Source: a virus. Taken from it: DNA of 55,049 nucleotides. A program made the position numbers and the translations under genes. Shown here in pieces: positions 2,457 through 53,655 of this stretch; position 1 is the first letter of the stretch; every line of letters starts with the position of its first letter. The notes under the pieces are model-generated. The model ran no database searches. It saw only the letters and a list, made by a program, of their open reading frames with translations, and had not been told where the DNA came from. The DNA is taken from IMG/VR virus record IMGVR_UViG_3300035180_000125, positions 1 to 55,049 of that record. The stretch is one strand, 5' to 3'.

Positions 2457-2486
2457 AAAGCCCGCCTAGTGCGGGCTTTTGCTTTT
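2457..2486 (+). terminator. Intrinsic terminator
   Basis: AAAGCCCGC (2457-2465) pairs with GCGGGCTTT (2471-2479) around CTAGT, followed by TTGCTTTTG. The core AGCCCGCCTAGTGCGGGCT recurs exactly in the terminator at 12706-12728. Positions 2487-2629 hold no gene, only a small hairpin GCGCC-ACA-GGCGC (2523-2535). Confidence 0.8.
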
Positions 2487-2629
2487 GTGTTTGGCGTTAA
2501 TCCGCAGGAAGGCCGCTAGAACGCGCCACAGGCGCCGATACGCTAGCAGGGCAGGGCCAGCATATAGGCGAAGCATTGCAGACGATCCTAGGCCGTTTTA
2601 ACAGGTTTTACCATTCCGTCTGTGTGGCG

Positions 2630-2657
2630 TTGACAAGTTCGCTACCCGTGGCACAAT
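2630..2657 (+). promoter_or_regulatory. Sigma-70-like promoter
   Basis: TTGACA (2630-2635), a 16-bp spacer and CACAAT (2652-2657), upstream of the small gene at 2689. Confidence 0.5.
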
Positions 2658-2688
2658 GCGAAGCATCAAAACCAAGCCGCGCCGCAAA

Positions 2689-2940
2689 ATGTCTGATTCT
2701 GTCATGTTGAAAGTTTCCGCCCTTCTGGGCCGTTCGCCCGCTAACATGCTGGCACAGGCGGAAGAGTGGGAAGCCCGCGCTGCCAAGAGTCTGCCACCAG
2801 GGCGGGTTTTCAAATACGGTGCCATGAGTGTGTCTGTTCCGTTTGAGGCTACGTATGAAGACGTTATTCAAATTGCGACAGACCTTCTAGAGTTCGCAAA
2901 GAACCAACTACAAGCCTCGACAGAGGCTGCTCACCACTAA
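2689..2940 (+). CDS. Hypothetical protein (83 aa)
   Basis: The same frame has an ATG at 2656, but that overlaps the -10 box, so the ATG at 2689 is preferred despite a weak ribosome-binding site. The product begins MSDSVMLKVSALLGRSPANM. It is amphipathic with a mid-protein PPGRVFKYGAMSVSVPFEAT stretch and a helical C-terminus. No family is recognised. A terminator follows at 2947. Confidence 0.5.
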   Translation: MSDSVMLKVSALLGRSPANMLAQAEEWEARAAKSLPPGRVFKYGAMSVSVPFEATYEDVIQIATDLLEFAKNQLQASTEAAHH

Positions 2941-16196: not shown

Positions 16197-16272
16197 GCGT
16201 CTGTAGCTCAAAGGATAGAGCAAGAGTGTTCTAGGCTACGGGTTGTGGGTTCGAGTCCTACCAGACGCGCCA
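16197..16272 (+). tRNA. tRNA, anticodon TCT (Arg) with an imperfect anticodon stem
   Basis: A 76-nt cloverleaf with encoded CCA. The acceptor stem GCGTCTG/CAGACGC is perfect, the D stem GCTC/GAGC is perfect with an 8-nt loop, and the T stem GTGGG/CCTAC with loop TTCGAGT is good. The anticodon arm is AGAGT-GTTCTAG-GCTAC: by position the anticodon is TCT (16230-16232, reading AGA), but only three of five stem pairs form. The arm also contains CTA one base along, so a suppressor reading cannot be fully excluded. It would supply rare Arg codons. Confidence 0.8.
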
Positions 16273-33266: not shown

Positions 33267-34163
33267 TTATACCATGTAACTGCCGTTGATTAGAAGATCG
33301 CCAGACGCTAGAATGGTCAGGGATGTTAGTGTCGCTGCTGACGTTTGCTGAGCGAGAGTGATTACGCTGGTGCCAGTGCTTGCGTACGCAACCAGTGTGC
33401 CAGTGTATGTTACACTGATGCCAATAACGCTGAATGGACTTGTCGGAGTGGATGCACTCGACGCAAACGGAAGGCCCGTAATCGTGAAGTTTCCGGTGCC
33501 CGTGTGAGCTGTCCAAGTTACCCTGGCAGAGAACATCACACGGTTTCCAATGCGCGTGTACGTGCCAGTTTGAAGAGTGTACGTGCCGGCTCCAGCAGTT
33601 GTAGTTCCTGCGATTACCGGGGTAAATGTCCCCTCTTGGTAGTAGTCAAGCGTGTTAACGTCGCTTGAAAGCGTCGTCCCTACTTTGTATCCTACTGCGG
33701 ACACTGGTGCAGCATTGAACGTGATTACCGATGTTCCACCAGCAGAGGTTCCAATGTTGATGGTTGTCGTTGACCCTGATACGCCACCAGTTCCGATGTT
33801 CACAGTCTTTGTAGTCGCCGTCAGCGTGGCTCCAGTACCGATGTTGATCGTTGTAGCGGCCGTAGAGTTTCCAAACGTCAGTGACGTACCAGTCACTGTG
33901 AACGTCGCATTCGAGTACGTTGTAGGGCCTGTAAACGTCTGGGTTAGGTTTCCAAGCGTTGCAAGTTGCCCGGTAATAGCTGGAAGCGTAAACGTGTACG
34001 TTGTTGCAGTAGGGAAGCCAGATACTGCGAACTCTGCAACCTTCGTGGAGTCTGTAGCGTCTCCAATACCGAACGTGCTGGAGTTAGCTACACCCCCATA
34101 AGACCCGGCCAAGGCGTTGAGCTGTTCGATGTAGTCTGTCTGCCCGATATAGAATGTCGGCAT
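33267..34163 (-). CDS. Tail fibre / receptor-binding protein
   Basis: A 298-residue Ser/Thr/Gly-rich protein. The middle has repeated TTINIGTGATL-like strands (VNIGTGGVSGSTTTINIGTS), typical of trimeric beta-helical fibres. The end DYYQEGTFTPVIAGTTTAGA, then YTRIGNRVMFSARVTWTAHT, is a common fibre tip. It probably binds the host receptor. Confidence 0.7.
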   Translation of the reverse strand: MPTFYIGQTDYIEQLNALAGSYGGVANSSTFGIGDATDSTKVAEFAVSGFPTATTYTFTLPAITGQLATLGNLTQTFTGPTTYSNATFTVTGTSLTFGNSTAATTINIGTGATLTATTKTVNIGTGGVSGSTTTINIGTSAGGTSVITFNAAPVSAVGYKVGTTLSSDVNTLDYYQEGTFTPVIAGTTTAGAGTYTLQTGTYTRIGNRVMFSARVTWTAHTGTGNFTITGLPFASSASTPTSPFSVIGISVTYTGTLVAYASTGTSVITLAQQTSAATLTSLTILASGDLLINGSYMV

Positions 34164-34993
34164 CAGATTTCCTCAATTTGTAGCGATGTCGCAAACTGGT
34201 TCAGGAACTGGTATTGAAGTCCCGATGCTCGCGTCATCTTCCCGTAGATTTGGAAGATTTGCTCTTCCATCGTATCGCTCGACCCTGGGCACAGACTTAC
34301 AAACACAGGCTTATACATACCGTTGCCACGGATGATATTCCACATCTGGTTTCGGTCAGTCGCGGGCATAAGGCCAAGGTCAAACGTGAGCGTCTTGTAC
34401 GAAGCACCACGGTCTGTGCGAAGATCGCCAGCATCGCTTCGTTCGTGTCTAGTAGTCTCGTCAACTTCGACTTTTGCACCGTACCCAGTGTTTACTGACG
34501 GCGACCAATACTGGCCTACGACGATCTTTGCAGCCTCTACATACCCCAGAGCGTTGGAAGTATCTACGAGGTCGATGACGACCTTCTTGACTGCTGCCGG
34601 AGTAAGCCAAACGTCTGCGTAGGCCGATCCACCGTATGAGTAGGCGTTGACACCGAGAGGCATCGTACCCCACGTCGAACTGCCAAGAGAGCTTGGCGCT
34701 GCAATGATTGTGCCAGAGTCGGTCACTGGCGATGCATCCGCAGTGTTGGTGTAGCACCTAACGCGGATTGTTGCAGCAGAGGTCAAGCTGCAAAATGGCA
34801 ATGCCACTGCGCTGACTACCTCTGCTGTATTCCAAGTCAATGTAAGTGTGGCAGAAGTCGAAGTGCTCCGCCATACCTCTGATTTGATGTCCGTCAGCAT
34901 GTTGCTAGCTGCCAGAGTTCCTGCCGTAGTCGATGCTACGAGGGTTGCTGCACGGTTTGCAGCATTGTCGTACACAATACGCAAGTTAGCCAT
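34163..34993 (-). CDS. Tail-associated protein (276 aa), carbohydrate-binding-like
   Basis: ATG 34993 (MANLRIVYDNAANRAATLVA) follows GGATGG; earlier in-frame starts overlap the terminator. The family is seen in siphophage tail loci. The first half looks like a galactose-binding-type sandwich (SEVWRSTSTSATLTLTWNTA), and the C-terminal half has GASYKTLTFDLGLMPATDRN. It overlaps the fibre gene by one base. Confidence 0.65.
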   Translation of the reverse strand: MANLRIVYDNAANRAATLVASTTAGTLAASNMLTDIKSEVWRSTSTSATLTLTWNTAEVVSAVALPFCSLTSAATIRVRCYTNTADASPVTDSGTIIAAPSSLGSSTWGTMPLGVNAYSYGGSAYADVWLTPAAVKKVVIDLVDTSNALGYVEAAKIVVGQYWSPSVNTGYGAKVEVDETTRHERSDAGDLRTDRGASYKTLTFDLGLMPATDRNQMWNIIRGNGMYKPVFVSLCPGSSDTMEEQIFQIYGKMTRASGLQYQFLNQFATSLQIEEI

Positions 34994-35009
34994 TATACAC
35001 CATCCATTC

Positions 35010-35050
35010 AAAAAAAACGCAAGTAGGGAGGTGACATTTCTGTCCCTCCC
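35010..35050 (-). terminator. Probable leftward terminator after the HNH gene
   Basis: GGGAGG-T-GACA pairs with TGTCCCTCCC around TTTC (35026-35050). Read leftward, eight T (35010-35017) come after an 8-nt gap. It could lower transcription into the fibre and lysis genes or permit partial read-through. Confidence 0.5.
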
Positions 35051-35061
35051 ATTTGCCATTA

Positions 35062-35460
35062 TCAGTTTGAGAACGTCACGATGCCGTGAGGCGATCCGTA
35101 GTATTTCCGTTCCCAGCGGTCCTTGCAATACTGCGAAGAGCACGACTTAATTTGAACCGGCATCCACGCCATGTTGCTAACACTGTCGCACCCGCCAGCG
35201 GCAAGCGATATTACGTGATCGACTGCCCACCCAGGACACGCCCCGTAAGACTGTCCGGTTGCCGGGCATGGGTGATACCGCTTAAAAGCCGCTAGAACGG
35301 CGCTGGAGCGTTTTATTTCTCCTGCCTGTGTCCTAACTGGCTCTCCGCACTGACGGTACTCTACAAGCGGGTTTAAGGCTTCTGAGGCCGGTTGTAGTGG
35401 CCCCGCACCAGATGCCATTGCGGTAGCCAGCAGCATGGCTGTTATAGCGGTCTTCACCAT
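35062..35460 (-). CDS. Exported HNH endonuclease
   Basis: A 132-residue protein with a signal peptide (MVKTAITAMLLATAMASGAG) and an HNH core: CPGWAVDHVISLAAGGCDSV, then SNMAWMPVQIKS and KDRWERK. Four or more cysteines fit disulphides in the periplasm. Secreted HNH proteins are frequent in late regions of phages of Gram-negative bacteria, where they could cut extracellular or competing phage DNA at lysis; this is inference. The start overlaps the upstream gene by 7 bp. Confidence 0.75.
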   Translation of the reverse strand: MVKTAITAMLLATAMASGAGPLQPASEALNPLVEYRQCGEPVRTQAGEIKRSSAVLAAFKRYHPCPATGQSYGACPGWAVDHVISLAAGGCDSVSNMAWMPVQIKSCSSQYCKDRWERKYYGSPHGIVTFSN

Positions 35461-47200: not shown

Positions 47201-49446
47201 TGAAGAGTTTCTACAATCTTTTGCTCAGCCTGAGACAGCGGACCTGCATTGAGCATTGCTGCAATCTGCTGGCGAGTTTCAGCAGCTTCGAGTTCTTCGA
47301 TAGCTCCCTTAGCCATGCCATACGTTTGCACCTTATACTCCAGGGCCTTCGCCTCGTCTTCGAGAGACTTAAGCTTTGAGTTTTGTTGATCTTGGCGTGC
47401 CTTCTCAATCTTGAGAGTTTCAAGGGTACGTTCATTATCAACTTCGATGGCAGAAGTCTTCTTTGCGATTGCAATCAGTTCATTTTGACGCGAAATAGCC
47501 AGCGTTGTCGCGGCATCAACCTTTTGGCTTTGCAGGCGTTGCAGATGCTCTTCGAGTTCAATTACCTTCTTCTGGGCCGGGCCTACCTTGTCGTAGTCGA
47601 GGCCGTGAGCTGCGAGGCGCTGACGAAGTTCGTCCTGCTCCTTCAGCTTTGCATTCAGGGCGTCGAGTTCGTCGTTAAACTTCTTCGTCGCAGTTTCAGC
47701 GGCCTTAGCTGCCTTAGCATCTTCTGCAACCTTCGGGTGAGGATTTGCATTCCACTTCGCAGGGTCCATTGTTAGGGTCGGAGTGACAGGCGCTGTAGCG
47801 AGCTTGTCGTTACCCTTCATAAGTTTGTCGAGTTCTCCGTTACCTGCCTTCAAGTCCTTGACCCAGCTATCTGCAACTTCGTGCGCCTTGCCAAACGAGG
47901 CAATGACGTTTCCGTTGAAGTCCTTCACGTCCGTGGTGATGTCACCAATGACGTTAGAAGCCGCTTCAAAGCCTCCTGCGAGCTTGTCAGCACCTACGGC
48001 CTTGGCGCCTGATGCGAGGCCGCTGAAGAGCGATTTAAGGGCATCGCCGACCATTCCGATTGCAGAGAGAAGCCATGTGAAAGGCGCCACAACCAGCTCA
48101 ACAATGCTGATACCAATCTTTGCAACAACCCATCCGGCAACCTTCAGAAGATCAATAGCACCCGCGATGAGCATGCGAACTGTAAACAGCGCAGCTCCAA
48201 TCAAACTGAAACCTTCCCCGGCACCAATAATGGCACCGATCCAGTTACCGAGCATTCCACCAATGTTCCAGACATCCTTTCCAAGACCGACGATTTGGTC
48301 CCAGATTTCTCCGATGGTATTCTTATTCTCTTGCACCCAGCGCATAACGCTGATGAACGCATCGCCGAGGCCACGCGCCACAGCAGGAATCATTTCCTCG
48401 ATTACGCGGAGAGACTTAGAGAGTTCATTATTGAACCCCGTGTCCTGCCCCATTTCGCCGATGGCCTTCGTCCACGCATTCTTGATTCGTTGCACACCAC
48501 CTTCAAAGGTGAGAGGCATCTTGTCAAACTGTTCGCGCCACTGCGGGAGATTTTCTTCGATAGCCTTACCGACAAGCTCCATAGAGAGCTTACCAGTTGA
48601 ACCCATTTTCTTGAGTTCTGCTGTGCTCTTTCCCGTGTACTTTTCGAGGGCACGCATAAGCACTGAGCCGTTTTCGGCAACAGCGTTAAATTCCGCACCG
48701 TTAAGGACGCCAGAGCTGAACGACTGCGACAACTGGAGCATCACTGAAGATGCTTCTGCGCCGTTTGCTCCGCCGAGTTGAAGAGCCGTGGCAATACCTT
48801 CAACCATCTTACGCGCATACTCAGAGTCCTTACCCATACGCTGCATAGATGGCGCGAGACGGGTGTAGAGCTTCACAGAGTCTTCGAGCGGAACGCGCAG
48901 GCGCTGAGAAAGATCATACATTTGCGCCTGAGCGACCTTCGCATTGTTCATGCTTCCAGTGGCATTTTCTAGGCGGGCTGTCATCATCTGCCACTCATCA
49001 GCTTGCTTGACAATACTGCCAGCGAAGTTGAGCGCTGTGTAGACTGAGAATGCAGTCGTCATCGCCTTGATTGTACTGGTCATCACCGTGTTAGATGATG
49101 AATGCCGCTCAGTGGCGCGCTGAGCGTTTACAGATGCCCCTGCAAGGGCGTTAAGTGATGCCACAGCCTGCTGAAGTGAATTAGCAGTAGCCAGGGCATT
49201 TGAATTAACGTTGGCAAGCACCGAGTTCAAACCGCCGAGGGCTTGCGTCCATGCGGCTGTAGTCGCTGAAGCTTGCAGGTTGAGAAGGTTAGACAAAGAC
49301 GATGTAAGCTTGCCTACATTCTTTTCCGCCTTATCAGCAGCACCAGCAAGACCACCCTGACCGTTGCGGCCAGCCAGGGCAGTTGTGGCCTCTGTAATAC
49401 CCGTCGATTCAACGACAATCCCAAGACGGGATACGTCCATTGTCAT
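44248..49446 (-). CDS. Tape measure protein (1732 aa)
   Basis: It sets tail length and is threaded through the tube. The N-terminal third carries a tape-measure domain (RKMVEGIATALQLGGANGAE, ASSVMLQLSQSFSSGVLNGA, ENGSVLMRALEKYTGKSTAE). Hydrophobic stretches follow near residues 425-475 (AGAIDLLKVAGWVVAKIGIS), and the rest is long coiled coil. At about 1.5 angstrom per residue the tail would be about 260 nm; that is an estimate. The start overlaps the chaperone extension by 4 bp. Confidence 0.93.
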   Translation of the reverse strand: MTMDVSRLGIVVESTGITEATTALAGRNGQGGLAGAADKAEKNVGKLTSSLSNLLNLQASATTAAWTQALGGLNSVLANVNSNALATANSLQQAVASLNALAGASVNAQRATERHSSSNTVMTSTIKAMTTAFSVYTALNFAGSIVKQADEWQMMTARLENATGSMNNAKVAQAQMYDLSQRLRVPLEDSVKLYTRLAPSMQRMGKDSEYARKMVEGIATALQLGGANGAEASSVMLQLSQSFSSGVLNGAEFNAVAENGSVLMRALEKYTGKSTAELKKMGSTGKLSMELVGKAIEENLPQWREQFDKMPLTFEGGVQRIKNAWTKAIGEMGQDTGFNNELSKSLRVIEEMIPAVARGLGDAFISVMRWVQENKNTIGEIWDQIVGLGKDVWNIGGMLGNWIGAIIGAGEGFSLIGAALFTVRMLIAGAIDLLKVAGWVVAKIGISIVELVVAPFTWLLSAIGMVGDALKSLFSGLASGAKAVGADKLAGGFEAASNVIGDITTDVKDFNGNVIASFGKAHEVADSWVKDLKAGNGELDKLMKGNDKLATAPVTPTLTMDPAKWNANPHPKVAEDAKAAKAAETATKKFNDELDALNAKLKEQDELRQRLAAHGLDYDKVGPAQKKVIELEEHLQRLQSQKVDAATTLAISRQNELIAIAKKTSAIEVDNERTLETLKIEKARQDQQNSKLKSLEDEAKALEYKVQTYGMAKGAIEELEAAETRQQIAAMLNAGPLSQAEQKIVETLQAQLAVRERIAAASGKLGSLQVEEEFNKLMDPKRAEKFGDALANGMGKGLKAVDALVNAFDKYEARMSTVKKAWELVNKETDPDKKAKMMKEAAEFEAEARIKSYGDMAGAAKGYFAEGSRGYKALEAAEKTFRAFEIAMSIKSFVEKSGLLEAFTSLFVTSKATETAAEVASVGPHVAAEGTKQGANAITALTSALAAPFPANIPAFAMVAAMLAAIGVAVGGGSGGSVDQGNAGTGTVLGGSGAASKSIENSISALEEVDTTTMRYSSQMAASLRSIDASMGGLANLVSRGVGVDPGQAGIDVGFERSGLGNALASAGHFLDKIQGLDKITGGLSSWAVNKVANLFGTKTSVQGQGLYGSAQSLDSIMTRGYNAQVYADIEKKKKTLGITTSTSNETIYGQAGAETSDQFTKIFRGFHDAVSSAGQALGMPLGDIENRLRGFVVDIGKIKLDGLSAEQIKEKLSAVFSAAGDRIAKAAIPGLDDFQKVGEGYLETLVRVASGVETAKFQLEKLGIAAVDFSTIINKQGDVATEIVRQSILKQESELKDFMTVRILGHVFKFQTQVANGIGEIINDFSGSVEDMVALYKDLVSARDKLDAVGLGTDLNRDLIRAAGGLQELIDALDAYSEGFFSEAERNASKLSKLRIEFAKLGVEMPITKDGFRSLIDQLNASGAEGEALAIKVLTLSGAFAELADSADAAVSAARDKLRTAYDNEAGSITNLRDKFLDFSKSLGDFKSSLITGDMSPLSGTEKYLTELERYDDVSKRAQAGDETAISNFESVATEFLKMSRDMFASGEQYTADFNRVLAETAALESSTAGQATVQQQSLDALNKQVDGLITINESVLTVTQAIEELRAVMSMGVVASTINGSHANGLSYVPFDGYVAELHQGEAVLTASENKAYQMDYAQYGLKSDEALVSEIKALRQEVQNLREGQREQTGQLIAANYDAQERNAQAVVEGTMDAVGANSYAERAKVTLS
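47402..47417. promoter_or_regulatory. Near-match of the TTCTCA palindrome inside tape measure gene
   Basis: TTCTCA-ATCT-TGAGAG, one mismatch from the motif. Being deep in a long gene, it may be chance. Confidence 0.2.
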
Positions 49447-49910
49447 GTCAGTTCCTTAGACTCGTTATCGTCTTCTGTCCGCTTACGATTGAACCCTCGT
49501 AGCACAGACAGAATCTTGTTTTCAACCGCAGTACGGTCGATTTCCTCTTCATCTTCGACGTGGCGGAATGGCGCTGGGCGATCCTTTGCAGTAGCTTGTG
49601 ACAGCTCTCCAACATACTCTTCGCTCAGGTTCTTGATTGTCAACCTCTCCCACAAGGAAAGGTCAAGCTCCGTACATCGAATCCAACTTTCAATTTCAGA
49701 CCATGAAAGTGGAACTGGCCCCATGCCATTGGATGACATGAGGCCAGCTTCATGCAGCAGACCAATCAGGTATCCAGCCGCGTGTTCTTGTTCTATTTCA
49801 GGCAGTCTAAGCGACGGGTGATTTTCATCCGCCGACTTGAACGTGGCAAGGCGCGATTTCTTTGAACCTTCAGGCGTCGCGTGCAGCCAGCCTAGCTGGC
49901 GTACATACAA
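49443..49910 (-). CDS. Tail assembly chaperone, -1 frame extension (gpT-like)
   Basis: This frame has only a TTG at 49910 and no ribosome-binding site, and it is open upstream to the slippery site at 49934-49940. It is in the -1 frame relative to the preceding gene. A ribosome slipping at T-TTT-TTG would make a fusion reading through FGAVSKSLSLYVRQLGWLHA into this acidic, helical domain. The organisation matches gpG/gpGT of lambda and similar siphophages; the extension contacts the tape measure during assembly. Confidence 0.8.
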   Translation of the reverse strand: MYVRQLGWLHATPEGSKKSRLATFKSADENHPSLRLPEIEQEHAAGYLIGLLHEAGLMSSNGMGPVPLSWSEIESWIRCTELDLSLWERLTIKNLSEEYVGELSQATAKDRPAPFRHVEDEEEIDRTAVENKILSVLRGFNRKRTEDDNESKELT

Positions 49911-49924
49911 CGAGAGGGACTTGC

Positions 49925-50332
49925 TTACTGCGCCAAAAAATTTGACGTGTCGCCCAGGGCCTCGTCAACTTGGTCCTTGATCCACGAAAGCTTCGGGTCA
50001 GAGAATACGGTACGGAATCCCGACTCGTCCTTCACTGCACTGCCGCCGATGCCAAGATTTTGTGCGCCAGCAACGCATGCAACCAGAAGCTCGATGCCTT
50101 CTTCACGCATCACCTCTGCCGAAACCTTTTCCTTCTTCGCGGTGCGCTTCAGTTGGCGGTTCTGCATGGCAGTAACAGCGTTCCGGTATTGCTTCGAGCT
50201 AGTGCCGTAGAGGGTGATCATCACAGGCTTTTGCTTGCCTTCGCCGTCCGCGAACAGCGGCTCGCCGGATACCGGGTGGCGCAGTTGCAGGTCGAAGGTG
50301 TCCTTGAGGGCAAGAGTAGTAAGATCAAACAT
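49925..50332 (-). CDS. Tail assembly chaperone (gpG-like)
   Basis: A 135-residue protein between the tail tube and tape measure genes. It begins MFDLTTLALKDTFDLQLRHP, has GKQKPVMITLYGTSS and ends DEALGDTSNFLAQ, with the slippery heptamer in its last codons. The ATG at 50332 follows GAAAGGAAAC. The short product is made by normal decoding and the longer one by frameshifting. Confidence 0.82.
   Translation of the reverse strand: MFDLTTLALKDTFDLQLRHPVSGEPLFADGEGKQKPVMITLYGTSSKQYRNAVTAMQNRQLKRTAKKEKVSAEVMREEGIELLVACVAGAQNLGIGGSAVKDESGFRTVFSDPKLSWIKDQVDEALGDTSNFLAQ
49934..49940 (-). promoter_or_regulatory. Programmed -1 frameshift site T-TTT-TTG
   Basis: Read leftward, the codons AAT-TTT-TTG (49942-49934) contain the heptamer T-TTT-TTG, where both tRNAs can re-pair one base back. 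The 0 frame stops nine nucleotides later (TAA 49925-49927) and the -1 frame is open for another 160 codons. Confidence 0.75.
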
Positions 50333-50450: not shown

Positions 50451-50888
50451 TTAGACTTCGATGATATCGGTAGTCACTTCGATAGTCGTTGTTGCACCAG
50501 TAATCTGGTCAACAGAGCCGACGTTCGTCTTGTAGCTCATCACTACGCCAGTGAAGTAGAGCTTCTTGCCGTTCTGAAGCGTTACGCGGAACGTGTACGC
50601 AGTATCCACACCAAGGGCAGTTTGCAGAGCGGTTTGCCCGGCATCAGTTGTGTCGCGGCCCATCTGCACTTGCAGTGAACCGTTGTTGTACGAACCCTTG
50701 AACTTCTGCACACGACGGCTGCCGAGCGGAGTGTGATTCACGAGGTTGTATTCACGTCCGACTTCGCCGAGGTCAGTAACTTCACCGACCAGGGTATACG
50801 TGAGAGCGTTGTATCCAGTAGCATCAAACGTTGCAGGCGCTGAAGCTGAGAGTGCCAGTGTAGAACCAGCGGAGGTCATGACAGACAT
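50451..50888 (-). CDS. Major tail protein (tail tube)
   Basis: A 145-residue tube subunit: MSVMTSAGSTLALSASAPAT, GEVTDLGEVGREYNLVNHTP, a KFKGSYNNGSLQVQM strand, AYTFRVTLQNGKKLYFTGVV and GATTTIEVTTDIIEV. This matches phage tail tube proteins with a central QM-containing strand and a closing ExTTDI end. It sits between the tail terminator and the chaperones, as expected. The ribosome-binding site AAAGGAAAA precedes ATG 50888. Confidence 0.88.
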   Translation of the reverse strand: MSVMTSAGSTLALSASAPATFDATGYNALTYTLVGEVTDLGEVGREYNLVNHTPLGSRRVQKFKGSYNNGSLQVQMGRDTTDAGQTALQTALGVDTAYTFRVTLQNGKKLYFTGVVMSYKTNVGSVDQITGATTTIEVTTDIIEV

Positions 50889-51279: not shown

Positions 51280-51690
51280 TTATACCGACTCGTATCGGTA
51301 CTTGATTAGAACTGGAACGATGACCCAGCCAGAATCGTCAGGAATTGCCCGTCCGATTGAGGGAGTCTCTTCGACAGATACTGCACCAGTCTTCGGCACA
51401 ATCGGGTAAAGATCGACAATGCTTTGTGAGAGTAGCTCTACCTGTCGCATCCCATAGCCTTTCGGCGCCCAGCAGTTAACTTGGAACAGGCCCTTCAAAG
51501 TCTTTCGACTTCCAGATAGTTCGTTGTTGGCTGTCAGGTTAGGGATAAGAAAGCACTCCAAAAATACAGTTCCAGCAAGCTTGTTAAACGCTACGTTCTG
51601 AAACGATACTGGAATGGGTGTCGGAGTTTGAGAGTCAGCCCAAGTGCTCAACCGAGACTCAAGAGCTGAACGGATTGCGGCGTTGCTCAT
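51280..51690 (-). CDS. Tail terminator protein (DUF4128-like)
   Basis: A 136-residue protein: MSNAAIRSALESRLSTWADS, PVSFQNVAFNKLAGTVFLEC, KTLKGLFQVNCWAPKGYGMR and a closing GWVIVPVLIKYRYES. This is the pattern of DUF4128/gpU-like tail completion proteins. It overlaps the upstream neck gene by 4 bp. Confidence 0.75.
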   Translation of the reverse strand: MSNAAIRSALESRLSTWADSQTPTPIPVSFQNVAFNKLAGTVFLECFLIPNLTANNELSGSRKTLKGLFQVNCWAPKGYGMRQVELLSQSIVDLYPIVPKTGAVSVEETPSIGRAIPDDSGWVIVPVLIKYRYESV

Positions 51691-52179: not shown

Positions 52180-53655
52180 TCAATAAATCTCCATCATGCG
52201 AAGCAGGTCAGCCCTGTTGTGGTGCAGTGTGTATGCCCACCGGACTACTGTGGCCCCGTCCCTATACGTGGAGAAAAACATCTTGTCTCCAGCCAGCGTC
52301 GTGCTTTGTGGGTACACGTTAGTGACCCACGGCTCGATAGCCAGCTTGATAATGTCGAACCTGAACACACGGCCCGTGGACTCTTTCTGAATGTACAGAT
52401 AATCCGACGACGCCACAGAACACGAGCCGGAGTTAAACGTCTCTGCTTGATTGCCATACGGTACACCGTTCATCCACCAGTTGAGGGCAATGTCATACAC
52501 GTCAAGCGTGTTTGTTCCAGCTCCACGGAAAGAGTAGATGTACCTTCCTCCCTGCTTGAAAGCTGTAGGCCATGAGGTATTGATTGCTTTACTCGGGATG
52601 CCTTGCCACTCTGCGTCATTGATTACTCCGATCCAGTCCGCAGTTCCGCCAGAACTCATAGCGCCGCCTCGGGTAGTGCCAGGGGTAAGTACTGTCCAAG
52701 TGTTCGCAGAGATACTGTACTTGTAGATTGCAGCGGCGGCGTTTCCGAGCAAGTACATAGCGTCATCATTGCCTTCGATTGCAAACACGCTAGTAGCATC
52801 CGGTGTAACTGTCCAAGCCGCAGCCACTGTGAGCACAGAGTTAGGGCCGGCTGTGTTACTAGCCACGACACGAATCTGCCCAGCGCCTGTGCCCGACGTG
52901 ATACGGACCTGATAGTTGCTCCAGCAGTTTACTGGGAACGTCACAGAAGTATTCAGTGTCGTAGTTGTCGATCCGGCAATAGCTGTACCCGTCGAAAACA
53001 CGCCTTGCAAGCTTCCAGTCGATACCAACTGTCCGTCTGTTCCCCACGATGTAGGAAGGTTTGTGACAGACTTTTGAGTCCATGCGTTAGTGGCTCTGTC
53101 ATACACAGCGAAGCCAACGGCTGTAGTACCTGCGTTAAAAAACCACATCGAGCCTGACCACACAGAGTATTGCGTTGTGGCGTCAAAAGCAACTGAGCTG
53201 GCAGGAGATACAGTTAGAATACTGTTGGAACCGGCTGTCGTAGAGACTACAACCCCTTCGTATCCAGACCCTGTACCAGCTACAACTCGAATCTTGCATC
53301 CACGGATGTCGCGTACAATAGTTCGGTTCGTAGTAAGCTGCGTAGTAGTGCCAGCCGTGGCGGTATTTACTGTACTGCCGCCGAGTGCCCCGATAGCTCT
53401 AAACTCGCCGCACGACCCTGCGCCGAATGATCCCGCAACGCCTGCGCTCGGAAGCTGGAGCCAAGCGTCCTGCTCTGCGTTGTAGTTCCAAATGCTACTA
53501 GCACTGGCAACAAAATATACGCAATCGTTAGATGGCATAAGCCCATCGTTGTCCCCGGCTACGAAGCTGCCGTTAGTAGTTCCAGTTGGAGCTGGCGTGC
53601 AAAACTCCCATACCTTACGGTGGAGAAGCTTCTTCAATTTAACTGTAGTTGCCAT
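52180..53655 (-). CDS. Kelch-like beta-propeller virion protein (491 aa)
   Basis: Four or more kelch-like blades end in Tyr/Trp strands: SIWNYNAEQDAWLQLPSA, FAVYDRATNAWTQKSVTN, IYKYSISANTWTVLTPGT and LDVYDIALNWWMNG. Between them are repeated TTTTLNTSVTF and GQIRVVASNTAGPNSVLTV-type strands. Such propellers in structural loci are thought to decorate heads or bind host surfaces. The 64 bp before the next gene hold no obvious promoter. Confidence 0.7.
   Translation of the reverse strand: MATTVKLKKLLHRKVWEFCTPAPTGTTNGSFVAGDNDGLMPSNDCVYFVASASSIWNYNAEQDAWLQLPSAGVAGSFGAGSCGEFRAIGALGGSTVNTATAGTTTQLTTNRTIVRDIRGCKIRVVAGTGSGYEGVVVSTTAGSNSILTVSPASSVAFDATTQYSVWSGSMWFFNAGTTAVGFAVYDRATNAWTQKSVTNLPTSWGTDGQLVSTGSLQGVFSTGTAIAGSTTTTLNTSVTFPVNCWSNYQVRITSGTGAGQIRVVASNTAGPNSVLTVAAAWTVTPDATSVFAIEGNDDAMYLLGNAAAAIYKYSISANTWTVLTPGTTRGGAMSSGGTADWIGVINDAEWQGIPSKAINTSWPTAFKQGGRYIYSFRGAGTNTLDVYDIALNWWMNGVPYGNQAETFNSGSCSVASSDYLYIQKESTGRVFRFDIIKLAIEPWVTNVYPQSTTLAGDKMFFSTYRDGATVVRWAYTLHHNRADLLRMMEIY

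Follow-up and report, generated by a model that had tools for sequence, protein, structure and literature searches.

Conserved frameshifts in tail genes were reportedly described by Xu et al. in 2004. In phage lambda, as set out in parts of a review (PMC5009743), the chaperone gene lies beside the tape measure gene and a -1 shift near the end of G yields the protein G and a longer product, GT; the tape measure protein is bound by G and by the G portion of GT, the tail tube subunit by the T portion, and their molar ratio of 30 to 1 is crucial. Here, we describe a gene pair of this layout in the IMG/VR virus record IMGVR_UViG_3300035180_000125, the whole of which (55,049 bases; the window) was analyzed. 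The pair, a frame G followed by a second frame T, sits between the tail tube gene and the tape measure gene, directly upstream of the latter. Whereas the layout is that of lambda, the slip site of the window is T TTT TTG / A AAT TTT and there is little sequence similarity to lambda G. The frames, the slip site, the conservation of both, the neighboring genes, the domain families and the predicted fold make it highly probable that this is a tail assembly chaperone pair with a programmed -1 ribosomal frameshift, predicted to make G and a GT fusion (Table 1). The device is well known and is new only for this poorly annotated phage family. Among the titles and abstract openings listed in the literature searched, none treats this family, which says nothing of papers outside that literature, and the portion of PMC11126041 at hand, a paper on phage Effie, contains the word frameshift a single time, in the title of a reference.

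The G frame starts with ATG, just after a AAAGGAAA stretch, and the T frame opens at 49964 directly after a TGA and ends at its own stop TGA (49445-49443), which overlaps the tape measure ATG as ATGA. From the G start to the T stop there are 890 nucleotides (nt), one base fewer than 297 codons, so that, with both on the minus strand, the second frame lies at exactly -1 to the first; this -1 relation had been claimed in an initial annotation made from the bare sequence. The overlap of 40 nt holds the slip site and in the G frame reads GAG GCC CTG GGC GAC ACG TCA AAT TTT TTG GCG CAG TAA. The TAA stop starts 6 nt and is complete 9 nt past T TTT TTG (given earlier as nine nucleotides), and the -1 frame is open upstream to the heptamer, as was also stated. 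The annotated product of about 297 residues proved to be 296 amino acids (aa) on translation of the fusion, and the single annotated site, T TTT TTG, is present but the in-phase A AAT TTT that overlaps it had been missed. The junction proposed for T TTT TTG, SNFFGAVSK, has to be corrected: tandem slippage there gives SNFLGAVSK, and SNFFGAVSK is the peptide expected from A AAT TTT, or from a shift that precedes decoding of the A-site codon. As the junction residue depends on the heptamer, a search for SNFFGAVSK as the single peptide could miss the main expected product of T TTT TTG.

Table 1. The predicted chaperone pair, its slip site and neighboring tail genes in the window
Feature	Position	Strand	Basis
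G frame, tail assembly chaperone, zero-frame product, 135 aa	49925..50332	-	Open reading frame (ORF); relatives' profiles, predicted fold
T frame, open at -1, interpreted as the C-terminal part of GT	49443..49964	-	ORF; PF23812 in relatives
Slippery heptamer T TTT TTG	49934..49940	-	In phase with G
Second slippery heptamer A AAT TTT, overlapping the first	49937..49943	-	In phase with G
Zero-frame TAA stop of G	49925..49927	-	
GT fusion, 296 aa, via -1 shift	49443..50332	-	Translation; predicted product
Tape measure protein, 1732 aa	44248..49446	-	PF20155 TMP_3, E 1.5e-53
Major tail (tube) protein	50451..50888	-	phrog_158, E 2.5e-19; PF08813, 24.3 bits (cut-off 24.2)
Tail terminator	51280..51690	-	PF13554, E 3e-18

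Conservation was assessed over a main table of 34 rows, comprising the window, 25 loci from L002 to L029 and L038 to L077 (the rest of which are the same contigs again or near-identical copies) and eight regions of named phages, L030 to L037. Among the 82 phage records with a T match six regions were read, together with two of the six records with a G match. Counts over 32 rows leave out the duplicates L050 and L029, and heptamer counts over 30 rows also exclude L004 and L031. Because of the relatedness among rows, the figures are strong rather than exact. The second frame lies at -1 in all 26 rows in which both halves are recognized by profile. In the other eight (L025 to L029, L032, L049 and L050) the G half is unrecognized and its frame was taken to be that which places T at -1; L026, from this group, also entered the G alignment A3. 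The overlap spans 13 to 94 nt across rows, with one exception of 562 nt (L027). Of the 30 non-duplicate rows, the window among them, 25 have an in-phase X XXY YYZ heptamer within it; when the G codons were recoded synonymously in 2000 trials, the average was 3.4 rows and the highest count 13. Elsewhere in the same genes there are 18 such heptamers in 6998 codons, whereas the overlaps hold 30 in 381 codon positions, and at least one is found in 27 of 32 rows where 0.96 would be expected from the rate elsewhere. T-frame residues can be aligned up to the slip site, at which the consensus FFxxVxxxLxLYVRHLGWLHATPE begins.

The slip sequence itself varies between lineages. T TTT TTG occurs in the window and most close relatives, and AAT TTT TTG is kept in 11 of the first 12 G relatives (several of them near-identical), L011 having CTT TTC ATC. 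T TTT TTA is found in L074, T TTT TTC in L034 and T TTT TTT in L027, and A AAT TTT is followed by a codon not starting with TT in L025, L026, L030, L031, L032, L037, L070 and L071. Slip sites of other composition are G GGA AAG, the slip site of lambda itself, in L023, G GGA AAC in L028 and L029 (G frame assumed) and C CCA AAC in L051. The initial annotation had said that it would be contradicted if close relatives with both frames intact had lost the heptamer. Taken literally, this applies to L011 (64% identity in G), which has no canonical heptamer; four more distant rows also have none, and the other rows without T TTT TTG carry another canonical heptamer instead.

T might instead be a separate gene, with translation beginning at a weak start of its own, TTG 49910, or, once G has terminated, by reinitiation. 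This codon is in frame with T, 14 nt past the G stop, and all eight named relatives opened annotate both frames as separate genes, with T starting downstream of the G stop and no joined product (the annotations are uncharacterized, except for one G called ABC transporter). Start-like codons were counted between the slip site and the conserved core in a different set of 30 rows, with L004 and L031 in and L050, L029, L036 and L037 out, the last two on account of weak T matches and a differing core; an earlier scan had halted at an earlier W in L026, L030, L031 and L032, and the later core-based count was relied on. One or two such codons occur in 18 of these rows (ATG in three), and L036 and L037 have them too, but the other 12 have no ATG, GTG or TTG there at all. 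In the window TTG 49910 is the sole early codon of this kind and no Shine-Dalgarno match was found upstream of it, bearing out the claim that the second frame lacks start signals of its own. T-frame similarity, moreover, continues beyond the start-like codons on their 5' side, as far as the slip site, and heptamers are far above chance. A separate T gene is thus very unlikely, and on sequence grounds the T frame appears to lack an efficient independent start.

A second alternative is that RNA polymerase, rather than the ribosome, slips on the T6 run and shifts the message. Six or more consecutive Ts are present in the window and in many relatives, but the same -1 arrangement occurs around slip sites with no long homopolymer in L023, L051, L028 and L029 (G frame assumed in the last two), and A AAT TTT is followed by a codon not starting with TT in L070, L071 and others, making polymerase slippage very improbable as the source of the shift. 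Homopolymer runs are generally error-prone, but a sequencing or assembly error that split a single fused gene is hardly conceivable, since independent contigs are split in the same way, among them L004 (99% identity in G, 96% in T) and relatives at 50 to 65% identity, always at -1 where both halves are recognized, and it is already refuted by those relatives.

The assignment of the pair to the gpG/gpGT type, made by the initial annotation, is supported by synteny, by profile matches of the relatives, by a fold match and by the conserved -1 overlap. PF23812 (Phage_TAC_18) is matched at E values of 0.01 or less by 23 of 25 aligned T sequences; 24 of 25 match phrog_18915, of unknown function, and one matches phrog_3817 (tail chaperonin). 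G sequences match phrog_20684, of unknown function (10 of 20), and phrog_313, tail assembly chaperone (7 of 20); the lambda G family PF06894 is matched by one of the 20 G relatives (E 0.0064) and not by the G of the window. A further family of unknown function, phrog_4966 (311 positions), matches 2 of 20 G sequences and is aligned at positions 21-104 with the G and at 235-306 with the T of the window, and it probably holds joined GT proteins.

The predicted structures of G and T have predicted local distance difference test (pLDDT) values of 90.1 and 88.8. The best solved match of the G model is the HK97 tail assembly chaperone 2ob9 (Z 5.0, 97 residues, root mean square deviation [rmsd] 5.7; next row 2.7), yet with 9% identity and a middling Z, and the tool warns that a Z of about 5 may mean a common arrangement only. 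The G model also matches two tape-measure chaperones of Caulobacter phage Sansa, of 161 and 310 aa (E 6.4e-07 and 1.7e-06), which look like the G and GT of one phage, as well as chaperones of Seurat (1.7e-03), CcrColossus (3.1e-03), Loki (0.02) and K1H (0.027) and many unnamed proteins; identity in the Sansa and Seurat matches is about 17 to 22%. The T model matches the chaperone of Escherichia phage Seurat (268 aa; E 1.7e-03, rmsd 12.1) and, at no better than E 1.4, the 310-aa protein of Sansa. By profile or fold, both G and T are related to known chaperones, the matches of the window itself being weak. The best solved matches of the T model were for the most part helical proteins of the Bcl-2 family, with Z no higher than 3.8; we ascribe them to chance. 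Searched by sequence against solved structures, the G profile gave as its best match a histone methyltransferase (E 0.38), which was rejected, and the T profile gave none up to E 1. One of 20 G sequences hit CIDE-N (Pfam; E 0.0002), and the G model hit a protein of a Colwellia phage that carries the name Slt transglycosylase (E 2.8e-04); we discounted these two matches as fortuitous or wrongly named.

Several results weigh against a frameshifting chaperone pair. A canonical heptamer is missing in 5 of 30 rows (L011, L033, L035, L036 and L052) that keep the -1 arrangement. The usual spacing between a heptamer and a stimulatory structure is about 5 to 9 nt, and no conserved RNA structure was found there, the consensus fold of 17 rows having 4 pairs and -2.1 kcal/mol; the hairpin that the window does offer begins 21 nt past the heptamer and is paired in 169 of 272 cells over the 17 rows. 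No Shine-Dalgarno-like stimulator was seen upstream by eye. The T of the window scores 26.3 against PF23812, narrowly under the cut-off of 27, and its G reaches phrog_313 only at E 0.0026. The five rows are not decisive counterexamples, because four carry a near-miss at the corresponding position (C CTT TTC, G GCT TTT, A ACT TTT and G GAT TTT), because G GAU UUU is listed as the shift site of pea enation mosaic virus in the relevant part of the review (PMC5009743), and because most annotated frameshift overlaps are without X XXY YYZ according to the sections of the PRFect paper at hand (PMC10885494).

Some local structure is present downstream. Eight single folds, two of the window and six of relatives, gave z values between -3.25 and -0.74, with five below -2, but near the slip site no fold was shared. 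The window hairpin (49875-49912, minus strand) lies over the conserved codons SLYVRQLGWLHAT, and its inner stem shows a G-C to C-G exchange between relatives. When it was slid by 1 to 3 positions the paired cells over 17 rows fell to 74-113, an excess for the true position that is partly expected for a hairpin drawn from the window itself; in six chosen rows it pairs 77 of 96 cells, compared with 28 to 43 when slid.

That ribosomes slip here, at what rate, and what the two products do, we infer by analogy and from the sequence. Under a ribosomal frameshift, most ribosomes would translate G and stop at TAA, and a minority would move back by one base at TCA-AAT-TTT-TTG, on T TTT TTG, on A AAT TTT or on both, and continue in the -1 frame to yield the GT fusion, with an estimated mass of about 33 kDa. 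If the products act as in lambda, G would coat the tape measure protein, the T part would recruit tail-tube subunits, and both G and GT would leave the finished tail.

The two heptamers on the same AAT TTT codons merit separate consideration. Among 17 rows with these codons (four near-duplicates removed), all eight without a preceding A continue with TTG or TTT, whereas seven of the nine preceded by A carry another next codon (Fisher p 0.002, relatedness not corrected), the pattern expected if at least one working heptamer must be kept by selection. We tentatively suggest that the overlapping A AAT TTT and T TTT TTG form a compound site that may act as an evolutionary bridge, over which lineages could swap heptamers by single, often synonymous, changes with the -1 shift kept, and that phages with both heptamers might make two GT isoforms, with Leu or Phe at the junction. 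At the U UUU UUA site of human immunodeficiency virus (HIV), the junction is a mix of 70 to 80% Leu and 20 to 30% Phe, as stated in the corresponding part of the review (PMC5009743). The ratio of the junction peptides DQVDEALGDTSNFLGAVSK and DQVDEALGDTSNFFGAVSK would reveal the heptamer or slippage step in use.

With this reading, the two genes can be annotated properly in a family in whose opened named members, among them Effie, MD-2021a, CGphi29 and three Vibrio phages, they now stand as separate and uncharacterized. As slip sequences are exchanged with the frame relation fixed, the family would also offer a compact natural set for studying which heptamers bacterial ribosomes accept. No near DNA match to window positions 30050-55049 was found among 50,697 phage records, and a scan of bacterial genomes with one peptide pattern only returned 15 stretches, none confirmed by tblastn.

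The surroundings of the pair differ in some named relatives. In Effie (L030, an Acinetobacter phage) and MD-2021a (L031) the pair does not stand before the tape measure gene; from 2440 it is followed by a short gene and then by a terminase-annotated gene (in Effie). In Vibrio phage vB_VaS_L1 (L033) a gene on the opposite strand, 2457-2909 (-), is annotated between T and the tape measure gene. Elsewhere in the window, a run of eight Ts at 35015 (-) contains an in-phase T TTT TTG inside the ORF 34163-35143; it was rejected as a frameshift site and attributed to chance, as the -1 frame meets a stop within 10 codons, and the gene itself may really start farther downstream. A 491-aa ORF at 52180-53655 (-), beside the neck and terminator genes, has weak Kelch matches and no PHROG match, and a tRNA-Arg gene with anticodon TCT lies at 16197-16272 (+).

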